64,000 bases of DNA from Agrocybe praecox (lineage: Eukaryota; Basidiomycota; Agaricomycetes; Agaricales; Agrocybaceae). The stretch lies in contig OZ024851.1 in NCBI GenBank assembly GCA_964017145.1, positions 1,612,001 to 1,676,000 on the forward strand, given 5' to 3'. The position numbers and the translations under genes were made by a program. The notes below the pieces were generated by a model, which did not search any database, was not told where the DNA came from, and worked only from the letters and a program-made list of their open reading frames with translations. Below, in pieces: positions 27,793 through 38,993 of the stretch (the stretch's first letter is position 1; every line of letters begins with the position of its first letter).

Positions 27793-29826
27793 TTACAAAT
27801 TGGCAGACGCTTCCGAGTCCGGGATGGGAGCCTGCAAGGCGGCGGAGAAGAACGCCAATGACTCGCTGGTATATGGAGGGTACCTCGCCCCAAAGAACTG
27901 TTCGTCACTAGTGGAAAAAAATAATCAAGAGCTCAGCTAAAATAATTAGTCAATATTGAATGTCGAGACAGACCTGAATCGAATATCAACCACGCCACGT
28001 TCGTAGACGAAGCTGTCGAACGTGTATTTGAGAATCTGACGACCGTCTGCAAACATTAATGTAAAGAGTCAATGAAAAAGCATGATCATATAAGATTAAA
28101 GAGAGATTATACGTACGTCCAGACTCGCCAACACCCCTGAATGGAAGTTCGCTAACTGAATGCAAGGGTTTAATCATCGTACTTGGCAAGTACTAGTAAT
28201 AGAAGCCATGTACCTCCAGCATACTGGAACACATCGTTAAACGAAACGGCTCCACTTCTTGTCCTCTCGACCACTATAGAGAAAGAGGAAATGGCTTGGT
28301 GAATGAAGAATCTAAATATGGGAGCGGACATTAATTACCTTTGCTCTTATTAGCTTCGTTATTAGAAAACACATATATAACAAGTGGGTCATTTCTACGA
28401 ATTTGCACACGTCAGAGATTTATCATTATAGAAATTAAAGGATTGAGATATCGCACCTTTCGTTGACATAGTCAATAGCCTCTTCGACAGTTTTGACGGC
28501 GTAGATGGGCAAAATAGGCCCAAAGATTTCACTGTGAGTGTTCAGCGTTTAATAACATGTACTCAGAGGAAGAGATCCGCTCCAGACGTACTCTTCCAGA
28601 ACCGCATCGTCGTCTTTGATATCAGTAATGACCGTAGGCTCTATTCCCCTTCTCCCTCCTTCAAGTTCCCATTTCCCACCAATCGCAATATTACCTTGCA
28701 TCCTTTCCAAGAGGGACTTCAACCTCTCAAAATGGGCATCCGAGATAATACGACTGTATGAGTCGGACGCCAAAGATCCTTGAGGGAAGAACGCGTCATA
28801 ATGCTCCTTCAATGCTGCAACTAACCCAGGCACGATCGTCTTCTCCGCAATAATGTAGTCGGGAGCGATACATATCTGGCCAGAGTTGTTGATCTTTCCC
28901 CAGAGGATACGCTTTGCAGTCAGAGAAATGTCGACAGAAGAGTCAATTATGACGGGGGATTTACCACCCAGTTCGAGGGTCATAGGCGTGAGATGCTTAG
29001 CTGCTGCTGCTGATATAACTCTGGCGACACGGCCGTTACCAGTATAATAAATATGATCCCCTATTGGTGAAGCAGTATCCATGCAAATTTAAAAGGTTAG
29101 CTAGACGGAACACGAACGAGACACTGATATTACATACATTTAAACTCCAAAGCCTTCGTAATTTCTGGTACACCTCCGAGTAAAACCTTATACGCCCTCG
29201 AATCGAGATACTTGGGAATAGTTCGAGCGAGGAAAGCAGACGTGTTTGGTGAGATTTCGGAGGGTTTGAGGACCGCACAGCACCCTGCAGATATAGCACC
29301 ATACAGTGGCTGCATGGAGAGTACGAAGGGATAATTCCATGGGCTTCATGAAGGTCACAGTAAGATAACCTGTCATTCTGAAAAAAGGAAAGAAAATAAT
29401 GTACGAAATAATGAGTACGACACCTTTCGAATGCTTCACTATCTTCGGATTCCATCCCTGTTGCCACGGAGCGGCTGGGACAACAATCTCTGGTTTCATC
29501 CATTCTTCAAGCTTGTCAGCCGCAACGAGACTTTGGTTGAGTATGGTGGCAATTTCTGCCATAATAGCCTCCTGCTTGGGTCGCCCCAGGTCAAGGCGGA
29601 GACAGTTGGCAATTTCGTCTGCATTTTCCTTGACTAGACGTGCGAGTTGGAGGAGTTGATGACGACGCCAGGCAAGGGGTCTGGTTAATCCTGTTTTGAA
29701 TGCCTTGCGAAGATTCGCGTTAATCTATCGTATAATGTAACGATGTCAGATAGACATGTTGAGGGAAGAGGATAAAGAAACCATAGTTACGATTTCGATT
29801 TCTGGGATAGGGGTGTATTCGGCCAT
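27793..29826 (-). CDS. Aldehyde dehydrogenase (class 3 / fatty-aldehyde type)
   Basis: Ten minus-strand exons (29826-29791, 29724-29405, 29343-29138, 29060-28592, 28531-28457, 28394-28339, 28273-28214, 28155-28117, 28046-27974, 27907-27793) are in phase throughout and give 482 residues. The enzyme oxidises an aldehyde to a carboxylate with NAD(P)+. Visible landmarks are SPWNYPFVLSMQPL, cofactor-site KPSE, TGNGRVARVIS, general base Glu in LELGGKSP, nucleophilic Cys in GQICIAPDY, EIFGPILP and the C-terminal FGARYPPYT typical of class 3 ALDHs. There is no C-terminal membrane anchor. Its position after P450-1 and UbiA suggests it may finish oxidation of a P450 product. Confidence 0.93.
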
Positions 29827-32071: not shown

Positions 32072-33474
32072 TGGGTGTGCACTGCACCGGCTGAAGAGTG
32101 TATTGTGTTTGGGGTTTTTGGGTTGGTCAAGCCTACATTAATTTGAAGGCTTTTAAAGATCCGCAACTGGCTAGTAGTAGTATTTCCATATGCTACCCCG
32201 GTATCTACCACTAGAGATGTTCTGATGAACAACTCGATCTGTATTCATATCAAGAAGAGTTTCCGAGAAGCCAGGAGCACAAGACCAGAATGTACCAGTG
32301 TATATTGCTGGCAGTTTGAACCAAGTTTGAAAATTTGAACGTCGAACAGCGCTTCTAAAAGTTAAACATATCAAAATCAATGTCCTGCATCACACGGATA
32401 CTTGGATCCAGATTCCAGTTTTGAAACCGCCGGGCCATCCGACCAGCGCTTCTAATTGAGCACATCAAGAGGACCACCCCGCATCCAGTAGATACAGTAC
32501 GGGGATACTTATTATGAGAGAAGAAGAGAAGAGTAATGTCGTGATTTCCTTCCGAGGATCGAATAGAAGGCTTATTGCTCAATGATGACGCAATGACAAT
32601 CAAACGTAACGCGTAACGCACCGACACATTTGAACGCGGGCCAGGTTGTTAAGACGGCGGCAAGTATTTTTGAGCTCTTTCCTGACGAATTTTCGATGAT
32701 TATGCGTTTCTACGTGTACTATATAGTATACAATTCTACGATGCTAATACATAGCTCATTCCAGCTCGATCCATCAATTTGGTAAGCCCATATGTTCTAC
32801 TCATCAGCGCTCAGCCTCAGTTGCCAGGCGATCCTAACAAGTAATTACCATACCGAACAGAAGAGAATATGTACTGACAAGTAGATAGTATTATACTGTG
32901 ATTTGAAATTATCCTATGTACCTTTTAATCTTAAGAATTAATTTTTGGCGCTTGGTGCTGAGTCGACTCAGATTTGTACCCACGTTGCTTATTTTAGCTT
33001 CCGTAATGCACCCTCATCGGGTTACCACCGTACATTTGGATCAAAGTTAGATACAGTACTACTTCTATCATGATCATATTCACGGTATGAGTACAGTGTC
33101 GATGGGTACAACTCAGATGCGGATCTGACCAAGATCTGATGCGATCTGCTTACCAAGATTACCAAAAACGTACAGAATCAACAGAATCCATACTATTATT
33201 TTAGAAATTGTTTAGAAACGTTTTACACATGCGAAATCTTATTGTTTTGAATAACTGAGGATGGTTATAATAACTGTTATTATTTTACAACTAAGCTGGT
33301 GCAAGAATCCGTCAAACATATCCATGACGCGCTCAAGCGGAGCACATGACATTGTTTACCACGCCGTTCACGTTGCGAAATCCTTGCTCAATGCTCTTTC
33401 TATACCACCACTCCCAATCGTCTCCTCTCTCAATCCCTCTTCAAGTTGAATCTCGGGACTCCTCAATCTGCTTT

Positions 33475-34907
33475 TTAAAGCTCAAGAACCTCGCACTGCT
33501 CAAGATGCCCCTCCATTTTCGATGCCAGGAAGTAATTGTGGCACACTTTACATTGATCCACAATCCCCCAGAGCTCGTTTTTGGTCAGACCTCCTCCTGC
33601 CCAAAGATGCGCGATATATTCCTCGGTTGGGTCAGTAGGCATTGCTTTCGCCTTTCCTTTTCCAGACCCTCCAGTTGATACCTTGTCATAGGTCCCTATT
33701 TCCGTGGCTCTGGATTTGGACTTGGCTTGAAGGATGGTCATGGGTTTGATATCGATGGGTGGACGGACGCGTATTTCCTCTGGTGAGTGTCCTTGACGAA
33801 GTAAGAGATCATCCATATAATTTTCATCAAAGTAGGGGTCGTCAATCTCGAAGTAGTTCTTGTTTGAGCTTGGGCCATGGTAATATCTTGGTACCCTATG
33901 CGAGGGAGAACCTAGGTTCGCCAACGTCTTGTATACATCATCCATGTTACGCTCGGTGCCCTACATCGGAAAGATGAGGATTGATATGGACAATATAGTG
34001 AGTTGTTCAATTGATAACTTACTTTAAGCAATGATGCAAAGCTTCGAGGAACAGCGACATTCCCACTATTCAACTGTTTTGTCCCGCCATACTCGTATGA
34101 TGATTCACCAAGGTATCCCTCAAAGTAAGGTGCCACTTCCTTTCGATTGACTCTCTGCTCAAACATTAGAAGATAGGGTGCCATTTTTGGACGTTCTCCA
34201 TTCACTGAAGACACAGTAAGTAATATTCTTTGTTTCTCGAACACTAGCAGTAACGTACAACTCGAATAGGGTATATGTCTGTACTCTGAGACTAGGTTTG
34301 TTGTCTCTCTTTTGCGTGTAAGATTGACTATGCAGTATTAGGGTTAATAATGGCTGTGACTACTCCCTTGCCAGCTAACGGCTTACCCGTAAACCCGCAC
34401 TGACTATCTTTGAAGAAGCAGTATGCCACGATACTGTTGCACGTTCTTTGGACAACGATACGGCATGGACGAGGCTCATCCGACACCATACCACAGAAAC
34501 ATTCGATAAAAATGCTCTTATTGTCAAGATATTGTTTAAGGTTGGTGATGCGGCCACGAGAGGATAGCGGCCTACATGGTGTGTCAGTTGCAAAGATTTC
34601 TCAACTTCGGTCTTAAGAACATACCAGGCAATTGAACAGACAGTCCTTGCCATCCGTGAATATACAACAACGTCTTGGCTTCGTCGCTGAGCTTCGCGCG
34701 GAGCAAAGAAAACACCTTCCATAGGTAAGTATTGGTGTTGCAAGTTAGTGTTAGATGTGGTCGTTTTTGCTGCGGGTTGGGGGTTTTTTATGCTCTTTCA
34801 GGGACCCCCATAACTTGTAGGTAAGCATTTCGATCACCATCATTGTATAAGTCTTTTTGATGACTTTTTCGTAGTTTCAAAAGGGCATGGTTTCCTTTCT
34901 TGGCCAT
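33475..34907 (-). CDS. MULE companion protein with two zinc-finger-like motifs
   Basis: Six minus-strand exons (34907-34815, 34769-34666, 34571-34387, 34327-34262, 34204-34023, 33960-33475) give 371 residues in phase. The start is basic (MAKKGNHALLKLRKSH). Around residues 80-125 is a CFCG ... AYCFFKDSQCGF block that resembles a GRF-type zinc finger (CxCG ... C.FF....CGF). The C-terminus has CKVCHNYFLASKMEGHLEQC, a C-x2-C-x12-H-x3-C pattern. In between lie low-complexity charged stretches. The donor ending exon 2 (GTATAT) was chosen over a later GTATGT because only it keeps phase. The protein is probably nucleic-acid-binding and may assist transposition. I do not recognise a named family. Confidence 0.65.
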
Positions 34908-35106
34908 TTTAAGTAATGTATGTACACTTTAACCTGCTATTTTATGTAAGAAATCTGAAATTTCCAGTTTTCCGTTGCTAGAGTCCCCCCCCTTCTATAT
35001 GCAAATATTTGTGTTCCATGGCCCCTGCGCAGCGCATTTGACTTCTGCGCTCGTGTTCTTTTGTCACCTCTATCTCAACGCTTCATCGTTTAATGTGTAC
35101 TTAACT

Positions 35107-38100
35107 ATGGTAGATATTCCTCTAATTCAAGGATATCCATATACTGCACCTCCACCGCGCAGGTTTACGCATGGCGAGATTGCGAGCGGACTGAACTGTA
35201 TCAACCGCCAGAATTATGTTCATTTTTTTGTAGAGCATCCGCAAGGCTCCGTTGTTGAGTACCCTGCTACTGGCCTTATAAAAAGAGAAGCGGTACTTCA
35301 TCGTTTTGCAGTCCCCGAATCTGGTTGCTTTGTTCATCCAAAAGAAAACATTCAATACTCACTTGGAAATCCTCAAACTTCTCGGGAAAATTCAGCATGT
35401 GGCTCCTTTCTCGTCGGAAAAAATGGTGAATCTGTTTATTGCCATGAAAGATACACTTCATGTATGTGTCTCCCGCATTACCTTCTAAATTATATCCCTC
35501 GACTAAATTTTGCAACCACGATTTATAGGTAAAGGTATTAAGATATGTGAAATGAAGTCGCAGTCGGTGCAGGCTCCAGCCACAAATATTGCCTCTGCGT
35601 CATCGAACCACATCCTCACTTATCCAGGACGGGAAGTTTTTAACAAAACACTTGCATTCTTCTGTGCGCTGAACGATACTGGATGCGCGTTTGAGCCATA
35701 TGGCAAAAATGATGATTTTCGAGAAGCTATCTCTATGTCACTAGACGCGAATGTCATTATCAATGACTCAGACTCAGATATGTCGGATTCAGATGCCTCC
35801 AACTCGACAACAAAAAGCAGGCTTAATACACGCCGAAGGACAAGAAACTCTCAACAGTGTAAGGGGAAATTAATACTCGAGTTCGATCTGTACAATAGAC
35901 CAGTAATCCGGTATGCACTCTCTCTTTCGATCTTCATCAGTACTAACAACTCTATCATAAAATTTCAGATGTCAGTACCGCTCATCGCAAGATAAATCAC
36001 ATATCTTTTTGAATCAGCTGGACACCTTTGATATACCATATCTTCAAGCACTGCTCACAAACGATACATACACAATTTCTCTTATAGAAAATGACGCTTT
36101 GTCAAAAAATTATGGACCTCTCATTGCATGTAGTTACACTGCTTCAGCATCTGCTCAGAGACAGCTTTGTCGTAAGTAATGTTCCTGATTTCGTGGCTAC
36201 TGAACTCTGAAAATACCTTTTGTTCTGTTCAGCATATTATCACCGCTTTTCTGACGGGCAACTTTGCCCTGGAACTCTCACTTCTACGGGCAGACCCTGT
36301 CCCGTAATTTTCAAGATATACACACCTTATGATATGACAAAGTGTCCTTATGTTGCGATTGTATCAAGAAATCCTCACTCACATCCTGATCCTCCTCCCT
36401 TGAAAACCCCACCTTCAATCCATAATTTCTTTACCTCTGTTCTAGAAGAGCTAGGCTGGAAACTCGCAGATGCAACGCCAAGGAAAATTCTTATTGATGC
36501 AGGTTTTATTCAGACCCTTCGTAAAGCATTGAAATGGACCCATATCCATGATCCATCGTTCTCGGACCTACATCCATCACTTGGTAACTTGGATCATGTT
36601 CGAAGAATAATTCAAACCGTACAAAAGGGACTGTATCCCGATGGGACAGGATTTAAAGGTATCTGTGCTTCAATGTCAAAATACCAACATCTAACTAGTA
36701 GTGCGGCAGGTGCTATTAGACTTGTAGAACAACATAAAGAATTGCCGAGAAGTGCAAAATATGTTCGCTGTGCTGAAGAGCACATTTTAGCAAATGGAAA
36801 AACATTTTACCTTATTATATGCATGTCGCCGGCAATGGCAACTTGGCTAATGAACTCAAAATATCTTGCAATTGACACTTCGTTCAAACGAGTGCAAGGT
36901 GACTGGCAAGAGTTCGAGATGGAGGGCTGGGATACAGTTTGTATGCGATGTTCGTTACTCCCTTTCTGTTTTTCAAATCTTAATTGAACCTGTACTGATG
37001 TCAAAATCCAGCGGTTGTTGGTGTGCGAGCACTGACGACGTCACAGTCGGCTGAAGCACACTTGATCCTTTTTAAACATATTTTTCAGATTTCCGAAGAA
37101 GACACAGGTATGCCCCCACGGTTTTTACACATTCACGGGGAAGGATTTCATGTATGGGTAGCAGACGCACACAAAGGCCAAGCCTTGGGTATGTTGCGAT
37201 GATAATTAAAATGGATGGACTACTAATAAGGGACTTGAACTACATGATTAGAAGCAGGCATGTTTTGTCAATCCCTTTGCGAATCCAGCTATCAAATGTG
37301 TCCAAGAGAGAGTGGACGGATGCTAAAAGATCTAGATGCATATGACCACCTGCGATGTTTCTTTCATGAATGCTACGTTCACTTCCGACGAAAAATCACA
37401 GAAATGAGAACACAAATTTTGAAAGATGTACGTGAAGCTATGTTAAGCATAGCTTCATCAGAACCTCATCCAGATCTTGACCATGCATTCAAAGTGATTG
37501 AAGGAGGAGGGAAAAAGGCAAGAGGTAGTTGACACCACTTTTCACTCACATTCAACCCTTTACTCAAGATCTAAATTGCACTTGATATCAGCATGGCTCA
37601 AGGACAAGAGAGTCACAAATAAATTCGCCCTACCTGCTTTATATCAGCCCATGAGTCTGATACCACGCGACATCTGGAAGGCCGCACCAAGGGACACAAA
37701 TGGAAACGAACAAGGACATGAAAATATTGCACACGACGGAGTAAACCTCAGTGTCACTGGTGCAATTGCCCAGGGGATGAATTACGACTTTCGTGCAATG
37801 ACAACCTTATCCCTTTGCGCGACCGAGGGTATATATGCGCGCAACCAGCTTTCAACGGATTTTGAACGTGCGAGGCGCTCTTATTTTCGAACAAGTGAGT
37901 ATTAATAATTTGAATTTTGAGTGGTTCATTTAATTATTGAACCCACTTCGCAGCCAACGTCCAGTTGAAGACCAATAAAACAAGCACCTCAGCACCTCTG
38001 ATGGAGCCACCATCCGAATTAGGCCCTACCATAATTCAACATGTAGTTGAACTTCCTTCACTGCCCACCGGGTCCAGCATACCATCTTGTCACCCTTGTC

Positions 38101-38333
38101 AAGATGGACCTGTGTTTCAAATGTTAGAAGAACTTACAAATATTCAATGTGAACCTGACTATGACCCATACCTTGAAGAACAAATGTTTCCAGCTAGCAC
38201 CGACGGCGACGAGCAGCCCTTTTTCGAACATTTCTTCAGCCACAATGATGTATGGGATGGCATTAGTATCCATAAACCAGTACCACTACATCTTATTTCA
38301 AGATACAGCAGTCTCGAGGGGGCATTGGGATAA
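35107..38333 (+). CDS. MULE transposase, intact
   Basis: Eight exons (35107-35461, 35529-35910, 35969-36171, 36233-36940, 37012-37188, 37252-37524, 37592-37894, 37954-38333) join without a single phase conflict to give 926 residues. An acidic patch (DSDSDMSDSDAS, about residue 200) is followed by the zinc-like DNA-binding region (CPYYHRFSDGQLCPG). The catalytic core includes LAIDTSFKR (first Asp, about 525), TSQSAEAHLILFK, and HVWVADAHKGQALG (second Asp, about 600). A distal RCFFHECYVHFRR and NGNEQGHENIAHDGVN segment would hold the last acidic residue. This architecture matches the MULE-type transposases abundant in Agaricomycetes. The tail after exon 7 is Pro/Ser-rich. Confidence 0.88.
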
Positions 38334-38993
38334 GAGCACTAAAAGATATATTTTCTCTGTACATATTACACAGTACTATACTACAATTCATGTCGTTATG
38401 AATGTAATAAGCCTGGCAAAACTTCAACATGGTGTTCAAAAAGATAAGCAAAAGATAGACCCGAGTGATAATCAACGTACCCAGTGCGTTATGTCTCTGC
38501 CGCTCTCTGCCGCGAATGATCTAAATCGTTTATACCAGTAATACAATATCCAATCGGTCCACAAAGTTAGCATGCAGTAAGTAGTAGTAGATGAATAAGT
38601 AGTTAACCAGGCTTACGTGTACTCCTGTTAGCCACTTATCGAACACTGCCTCGTGTCCGCAGGCATTTCTGGTTGATCAGATCTAATCTGAGTTGTACCC
38701 ATCGAACTATAACTCTCACGGTATTGAGCCGCAAGCGCTGGTCAAGGCTGTTCCAAACCAGTATCCCATCACAATCAGAAAAATTACACCTACACGCGGT
38801 CTTTTGGAAGTAGAGGCTTCCAGCTTCCTTGATAAGTATTCATGCGGAACTTGAGTTTGAGCCTCAATAGAAGCTCTAGCCAAACCTTAACGAGAACTAG
38901 AACTCCACGAACACAGGAAAAACTTGAACGTGTGTGCAACGAATTTACGAAACTGGAGTGACGTATGGCATGGTTAAGTATACCCGTAAAGTG

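Follow-up and report, generated by a model that had tools for sequence, protein, structure and literature searches.

A 64,000-nucleotide stretch of the genome of the mushroom Agrocybe praecox (contig OZ024851.1, positions 1,612,001 to 1,676,000; this whole stretch is hereafter the window) contains a two-gene transposable element of 5,627 bp at 33089-38715, flanked by perfect 9-bp target-site duplications. It is very probably a DNA transposon of autonomous type, operating in the manner of the Mutator-like elements (MULEs) and the IS256 family, and comes from a mushroom transposase lineage lying outside the Pfam models.

Each 30-bp end of the element has the same layout: GAGT, six mismatched bases and a perfect 20-base core, amounting to 24/30 agreement between the two ends. 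Three GATCTG units lie immediately inside the left terminal repeat, at 33122, 33133 and 33143. The two genes are divergent (Table 1), and the interval between their start codons presumably holds the promoters of both. The exons of the transposase gene are separated by GT..AG introns and join into one open frame of 926 codons and a stop. In the second gene (gene 2) exon 1 and the first intron are predicted, and the model is backed from exon 2 onward by alignment with a protein of Gymnopilus (P0109). An earlier note on this DNA had described the 9-bp duplications and the 20-base core at the inverted ends, both of which hold to the base; its 926-residue transposase with eight exons in phase and its intact second divergent gene were likewise recovered, the latter as an open frame of six exons.

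Table 1. Features of the element (window coordinates) and its full-length copies (contig coordinates)
Feature	Position	Strand	Details
Left 9-bp target-site duplication	33080..33088	.	TCACGGTAT; direct sequence reading
Left terminal inverted repeat, 30 bp	33089..33118	+	24/30 match to right end; perfect core 33099-33118
Gene 2, 358 aa, six exons	33475..34907	-	open frame; relatives' alignment
Gene 2 exons	34907-34815, 34686-34625, 34571-34387, 34327-34259, 34204-34023, 33960-33475	-	stop included
Interval between divergent start codons, 199 bp	34908..35106	.	gene models
Transposase gene, 926 aa, eight exons	35107..38333	+	open frame with GT..AG introns; stop TAA 38331-38333
Transposase exons	35107-35461, 35529-35910, 35969-36171, 36233-36940, 37012-37188, 37252-37524, 37592-37894, 37954-38333	+	stop included
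Right terminal inverted repeat, 30 bp	38686..38715	-	perfect core 38686-38705
Right 9-bp target-site duplication	38716..38724	.	TCACGGTAT; direct sequence reading
Window copy	C12:1645089-1650715		duplication TCACGGTAT
Second full copy	C12:3057596-3063218		duplication CAGTCAAAT
Third full copy	C12:2728914-2734536		duplication GTCGAGAAC, given in element orientation

Copies and sister elements in the genome

The genome searched comprises 59.17 Mb in 347 contigs, and counts of matches in it are lower bounds. A search with the whole element returned at least four matches: three of full length, and one, on contig C3, of a 38-bp end only. The earlier note had proposed looking for further copies with different 9-bp duplications, and had staked its reading on their existence and on the boundaries 33089/38715: two more full copies were found, and all three share identical end points while each has its own, different, perfect 9-bp duplication. 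The two non-window copies are identical to each other over 5,623 bp, from which the window copy is separated by 61 substitutions and four gap bases. Because this identical pair carries different target duplications, recent movement of the family is supported. The suggestion of recent activity is supported for the family, and not for the window copy itself with its 61 differences. All three copies lie on one 3.49-Mb contig, a placement expected by chance for the other two in about 0.35% of cases; this is a post hoc figure from three copies, and local hopping is not claimed. The joined empty site of the window copy has no match across the join anywhere in the assembly; it recovered the two window flanks, each on its own, and, at other places, brief stretches of the left flank.

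When up to three mismatches are allowed, the genome contains 27 instances of the 20-base core, six being the ends of the three copies, against one for a reversed-pattern control. Core-type ends also bound three short relatives of 855-875 bp on C3 and C4, with duplications matching at 9/9, 8/9 and 8/9 bases; beyond about 60 terminal bases these show chance-level matches only to the window family. A larger sister element on C2 spans 6,150 bp between the ends GAGTCATGGTTCGATTGGTATAAGTCGGCTA and GAGGTATCGTTCGATTGGTATAAGTCGGCTA, with a perfect 9/9 duplication, CTTCTTCAG. Its transposase is 22-44% identical to that of the window element in four pieces, and 35% identical over residues 314-552 in a separate search.

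Two arrangements of related ends were also seen. At C12:157303-166558 two end cores are separated by 9.3 kb and flanked on either side by AAGTCAATC, at a one-base offset; this may be one short element that a later insertion has interrupted. On C10 and C12, large end pairs were sampled at their ends. A short element belonging to the related family, at C3:4403560-4404540, adjoins a remnant of one end (60 bp) from that family, which suggests repeated insertion at one place.

The transposase and the class of the element

The transposase has 108 relatives in the set found. The residues D528, D601, C649xxH652, W728 and E739 are present in the window copy, their positions are conserved in 54-57 of 58 relatives, and a catalytic role is presumed. 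The predicted model contains an RNase H-like core, for which ISCth4 of the IS256 family ranks first among solved structures, at 13% identity over the aligned part and with the stretch holding the third acidic residue at a predicted local distance difference test score (pLDDT) of about 60. Many MULEs, though not all, have an N-terminal zinc finger of the WRKY/FLYWCH kind; the N-terminal part here gives a tentative WRKY-like match, weaker than that to ISCth4. A sequence search of solved structures returned one line only, at E 0.86.

MULEs are marked by 8-10-bp, typically 9-bp, duplications, and here all nine bases agree in the three copies and the C2 element. Terminal inverted repeats are present, CxxH and W stand between the second aspartate and the glutamate of the DDE triad, and an IS256/MULE-type RNase H-like core is found, the last on the predicted model only. 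The conserved residues, the best match to ISCth4, the weaker WRKY-like match and the duplications together support a MULE-type identity. Pfam does not supply this assignment: the window transposase matches no family at E <= 1, none of nine relatives has a match above cut-off, and a Pfam MULE match, the usual mark of recognition though not part of the definition, is thus lacking. It is for this reason that we claim only that the element works like a MULE and leave descent from MULEs aside. The earlier label of MULE is accordingly upheld by architecture, conserved residues and predicted fold, and not by Pfam. Profile comparison between the family and a MULE that Pfam does recognise in this genome (605 residues of its 639-residue frame) was unsuccessful. 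Weak Pfam lines for both proteins of the element (e.g. Flu_C_NS1, RecR_ZnF and the TcdB middle region) fell below cut-off and were taken as chance.

Alternatively, the transposase could fall in a different DDE superfamily that carries a helical insertion (hAT, P or Transib-like) or form its own superfamily, the MULE-like duplication length being convergent. We regard this as unlikely. Elements of the hAT superfamily make 8-bp target-site duplications, unlike the 9-bp length seen here.

If the element does work as a MULE, the transposase would bind the shared terminal core, perhaps via its WRKY-like (zinc-type) N-terminal part; its DDE site would cut the element ends, and these would then be joined to target DNA whose strands are cut 9 bp apart. 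The gene 2 product would be a cysteine-rich companion, probably binding zinc and nucleic acid, that aids transposition or keeps the element expressed.

Several known systems offer points of comparison. One in print is Mutyl of Yarrowia lipolytica (Hop group): a two-gene fungal MULE with mutA and an antisense second open reading frame, mutB, 9-10-bp duplications and short ends of 22 bp (PMC6446971; PMC9865632). Unlike the window element, Mutyl resides in an ascomycete yeast, and unlike Mutyl, the window transposase is without a Pfam match. ISCth4 shares with the window transposase the predicted core fold, the D-D-CxxH-E order and a helical insertion, whereas IS256-type elements are bacterial, have one open reading frame and 8-bp duplications, and move by copy-out/paste-in. 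Muta1 of Aedes aegypti has the D-D-E residues, CxxH, the conserved W and 8-9-bp duplications, and differs in coming from an animal and in the size of its transposase, 504 residues. Maize MuDR and Arabidopsis VANDAL are MULEs that couple a transposase to one or more accessory genes, as the window element may do, the accessory product of MuDR being MURB. These are plant elements; gene 2 matches no Pfam family above cut-off, and the non-coding parts of the window element lack a repeated motif array: no 8-mer occurs more than three times within the three non-coding parts, in which VANC-like target repeats were sought. The VANC proteins of VANDAL are anti-silencing factors (PMC10398659).

On present evidence, about a hundred mushroom proteins, nearly all labelled hypothetical, are transposases of one MULE-type clade unrecognised by Pfam. 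Since the transposases of this clade escape Pfam, the transposon content of mushroom genomes is probably under-annotated. Among the titles listed on Mutator elements of mushrooms or basidiomycetes, none concerned the clade, Repbase and subscription papers lying outside this scope, and a name may well exist.

Further transposase loci of the genome were noted. A distant relative, mostly 21-27% identical and with a 306-residue open frame, is present in three copies on C9, C7 and C320, in which no gene 2 relative was found. A Pfam-recognised MULE domain in a 639-aa frame lies at C46:4865-5143, accompanied in another frame of that locus by a tandem repeat, some 30 residues in size (NRYRLDWPCPLANGPRRPAGGGRRYFKQGT). 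Minisatellites are likewise recorded for Rehavkus and Phantom elements (PMC6446971).

The second gene

The gene 2 protein displays two cysteine-rich motifs, CxC..C..CGF and CxxC-x12-H-x4-C. A first model (357 aa, start 34722, with one intron missed) found none of 878 candidates at E <= 1 and was replaced. A genome search gave a weak match on C13 (E 2.4e-4), in a region where a relative spliced in much the same way was then identified, and the corrected protein aligned with this relative retrieved three database relatives (3,065 candidates, E <= 10): P0109 of Gymnopilus dilepis (E 3.9e-53), P0110 of G. junonius (E 2.6e-41) and P0111 from a JGI source (E 4.5e-10). All five family sequences share C103, C110-G-F, N-L-T, Y..H.P and YFEG...E; four of them keep the CxC pair and three the C-terminal CxxC..H..C. 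No Pfam family was found above cut-off; for P0109, a match to a C2HC zinc finger (E 0.0055) lies below it and is a hint only. A GRF-type zinc finger, considered for the CxC..C..CGF part, was backed by no tool, the predicted structure of the relatives is uninformative (mean pLDDT 31.8), and no name for the family was found in the literature searched.

A further, weakly similar relative lies on the plus strand of the C2 element. Two of its introns sit where gene 2 has them: one of phase 2, ahead of a proline, and one of phase 1, ahead of VN[LI]T. Before splicing, a single exon reached only E 0.064 (1,930 frames); the joined product scores 17.7 bits against the family profile, the best of 500 shuffles reaching 8.0, and hhalign gives P 4.4e-5 with a probability of 69%. 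The two genes are convergent in the C2 element and divergent in the window element.

Gene 2 might instead be a captured host gene or fragment with no functional part in the transposon. MULEs tend to pick up host gene fragments (PMC6446971), and the small number of database relatives would fit. Relatives of gene 2 also occur in two 85%-identical repeat copies on C13 and C4 (L046 4796-6185 and L062 863-2223), and no transposase relative was found beside the former (E <= 0.01, within the examined part of 10 kb) or the latter (E <= 0.3, within 4 kb); these repeats may represent an element mobilising only the companion gene. Against capture stand the two introns of the same place and phase inside an element with so diverged a transposase and the other gene orientation, and a frame that stays open in each of the three copies, the window copy differing from the others at five amino acids. 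Thus, we hold capture to be rather improbable: judged from these sequences, an old partnership of gene 2 with the transposon is most likely, and we hypothesize that gene 2 acts as an accessory or counters silencing.

Decay of the window copy

At 42 of the 61 substituted sites the window copy carries T or A in place of the C or G of the others, at 13 the reverse is seen and six are transversions, an excess of the C-to-T type with a binomial P of 1.1e-4. Thirty of these 42 changes are at CpG, against 2/13 of the reverse changes, while 470 of 2,427 C+G (19.4%) lie in CpG (Fisher P 2e-13); 6.4% of CpG sites were hit, against 0.6% of other C/G. The transposase frame contains 16 amino-acid-changing and 13 silent substitutions. 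In a comparison with 28 relatives hand-chosen from the 108, seven of the 16 replace a residue common to at least 24 of the 28: R572, G609 (28/28), R644, R647, R747 (27/28), R760 and D784. I509 is the sole change at which the window copy retains the family residue, and the remaining eight fall in variable or gapped columns. The D, D, C, H, W and E positions are unaltered.

Because of this CpG-type decay and the changes at strongly conserved positions, the window copy is judged older or more decayed than the other two. It probably encodes an impaired transposase, and its ends could still be mobilised in trans. The earlier description of it as apparently intact is therefore true of its reading frames and ends only. 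A reading of the window copy as functional and newly inserted is very unlikely: its open frames, intact splice sites and ends, perfect duplication and first 212-214 bases identical to the other copies would favour this, and the bias towards CpG and the replaced family residues speak against it.

The changes may reflect mutation like repeat-induced point mutation (RIP), or ordinary deamination of methylated DNA; an older insertion would accumulate C-to-T mainly at CpG in just this way if methylated. A CpG-type C-to-T bias in the transposons of basidiomycetes without RID-type genes is reported (PMC4352252). One decidedly speculative proposal joins these threads: gene 2 would be a dedicated partner, kept since before the two elements of the lineage diverged, that acts against host CpG methylation, so that its weakening lets CpG-type decay begin; it would be a VANC counterpart of independent origin. 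With young and decaying copies in one genome and a companion gene family, both the role of the companion and the relation of CpG-type decay to transposition are directly testable.

In the flanks, the nearest nameable frame among the frame lists is one we take to be aldehyde-dehydrogenase-like (29188-29724). Directly left of the element, 32939-33010 is a short interspersed repeat with matches on C13, C1 and C10, and it contains a piece like the element's own end core, reversed (TCAGATTTGTACCCA).
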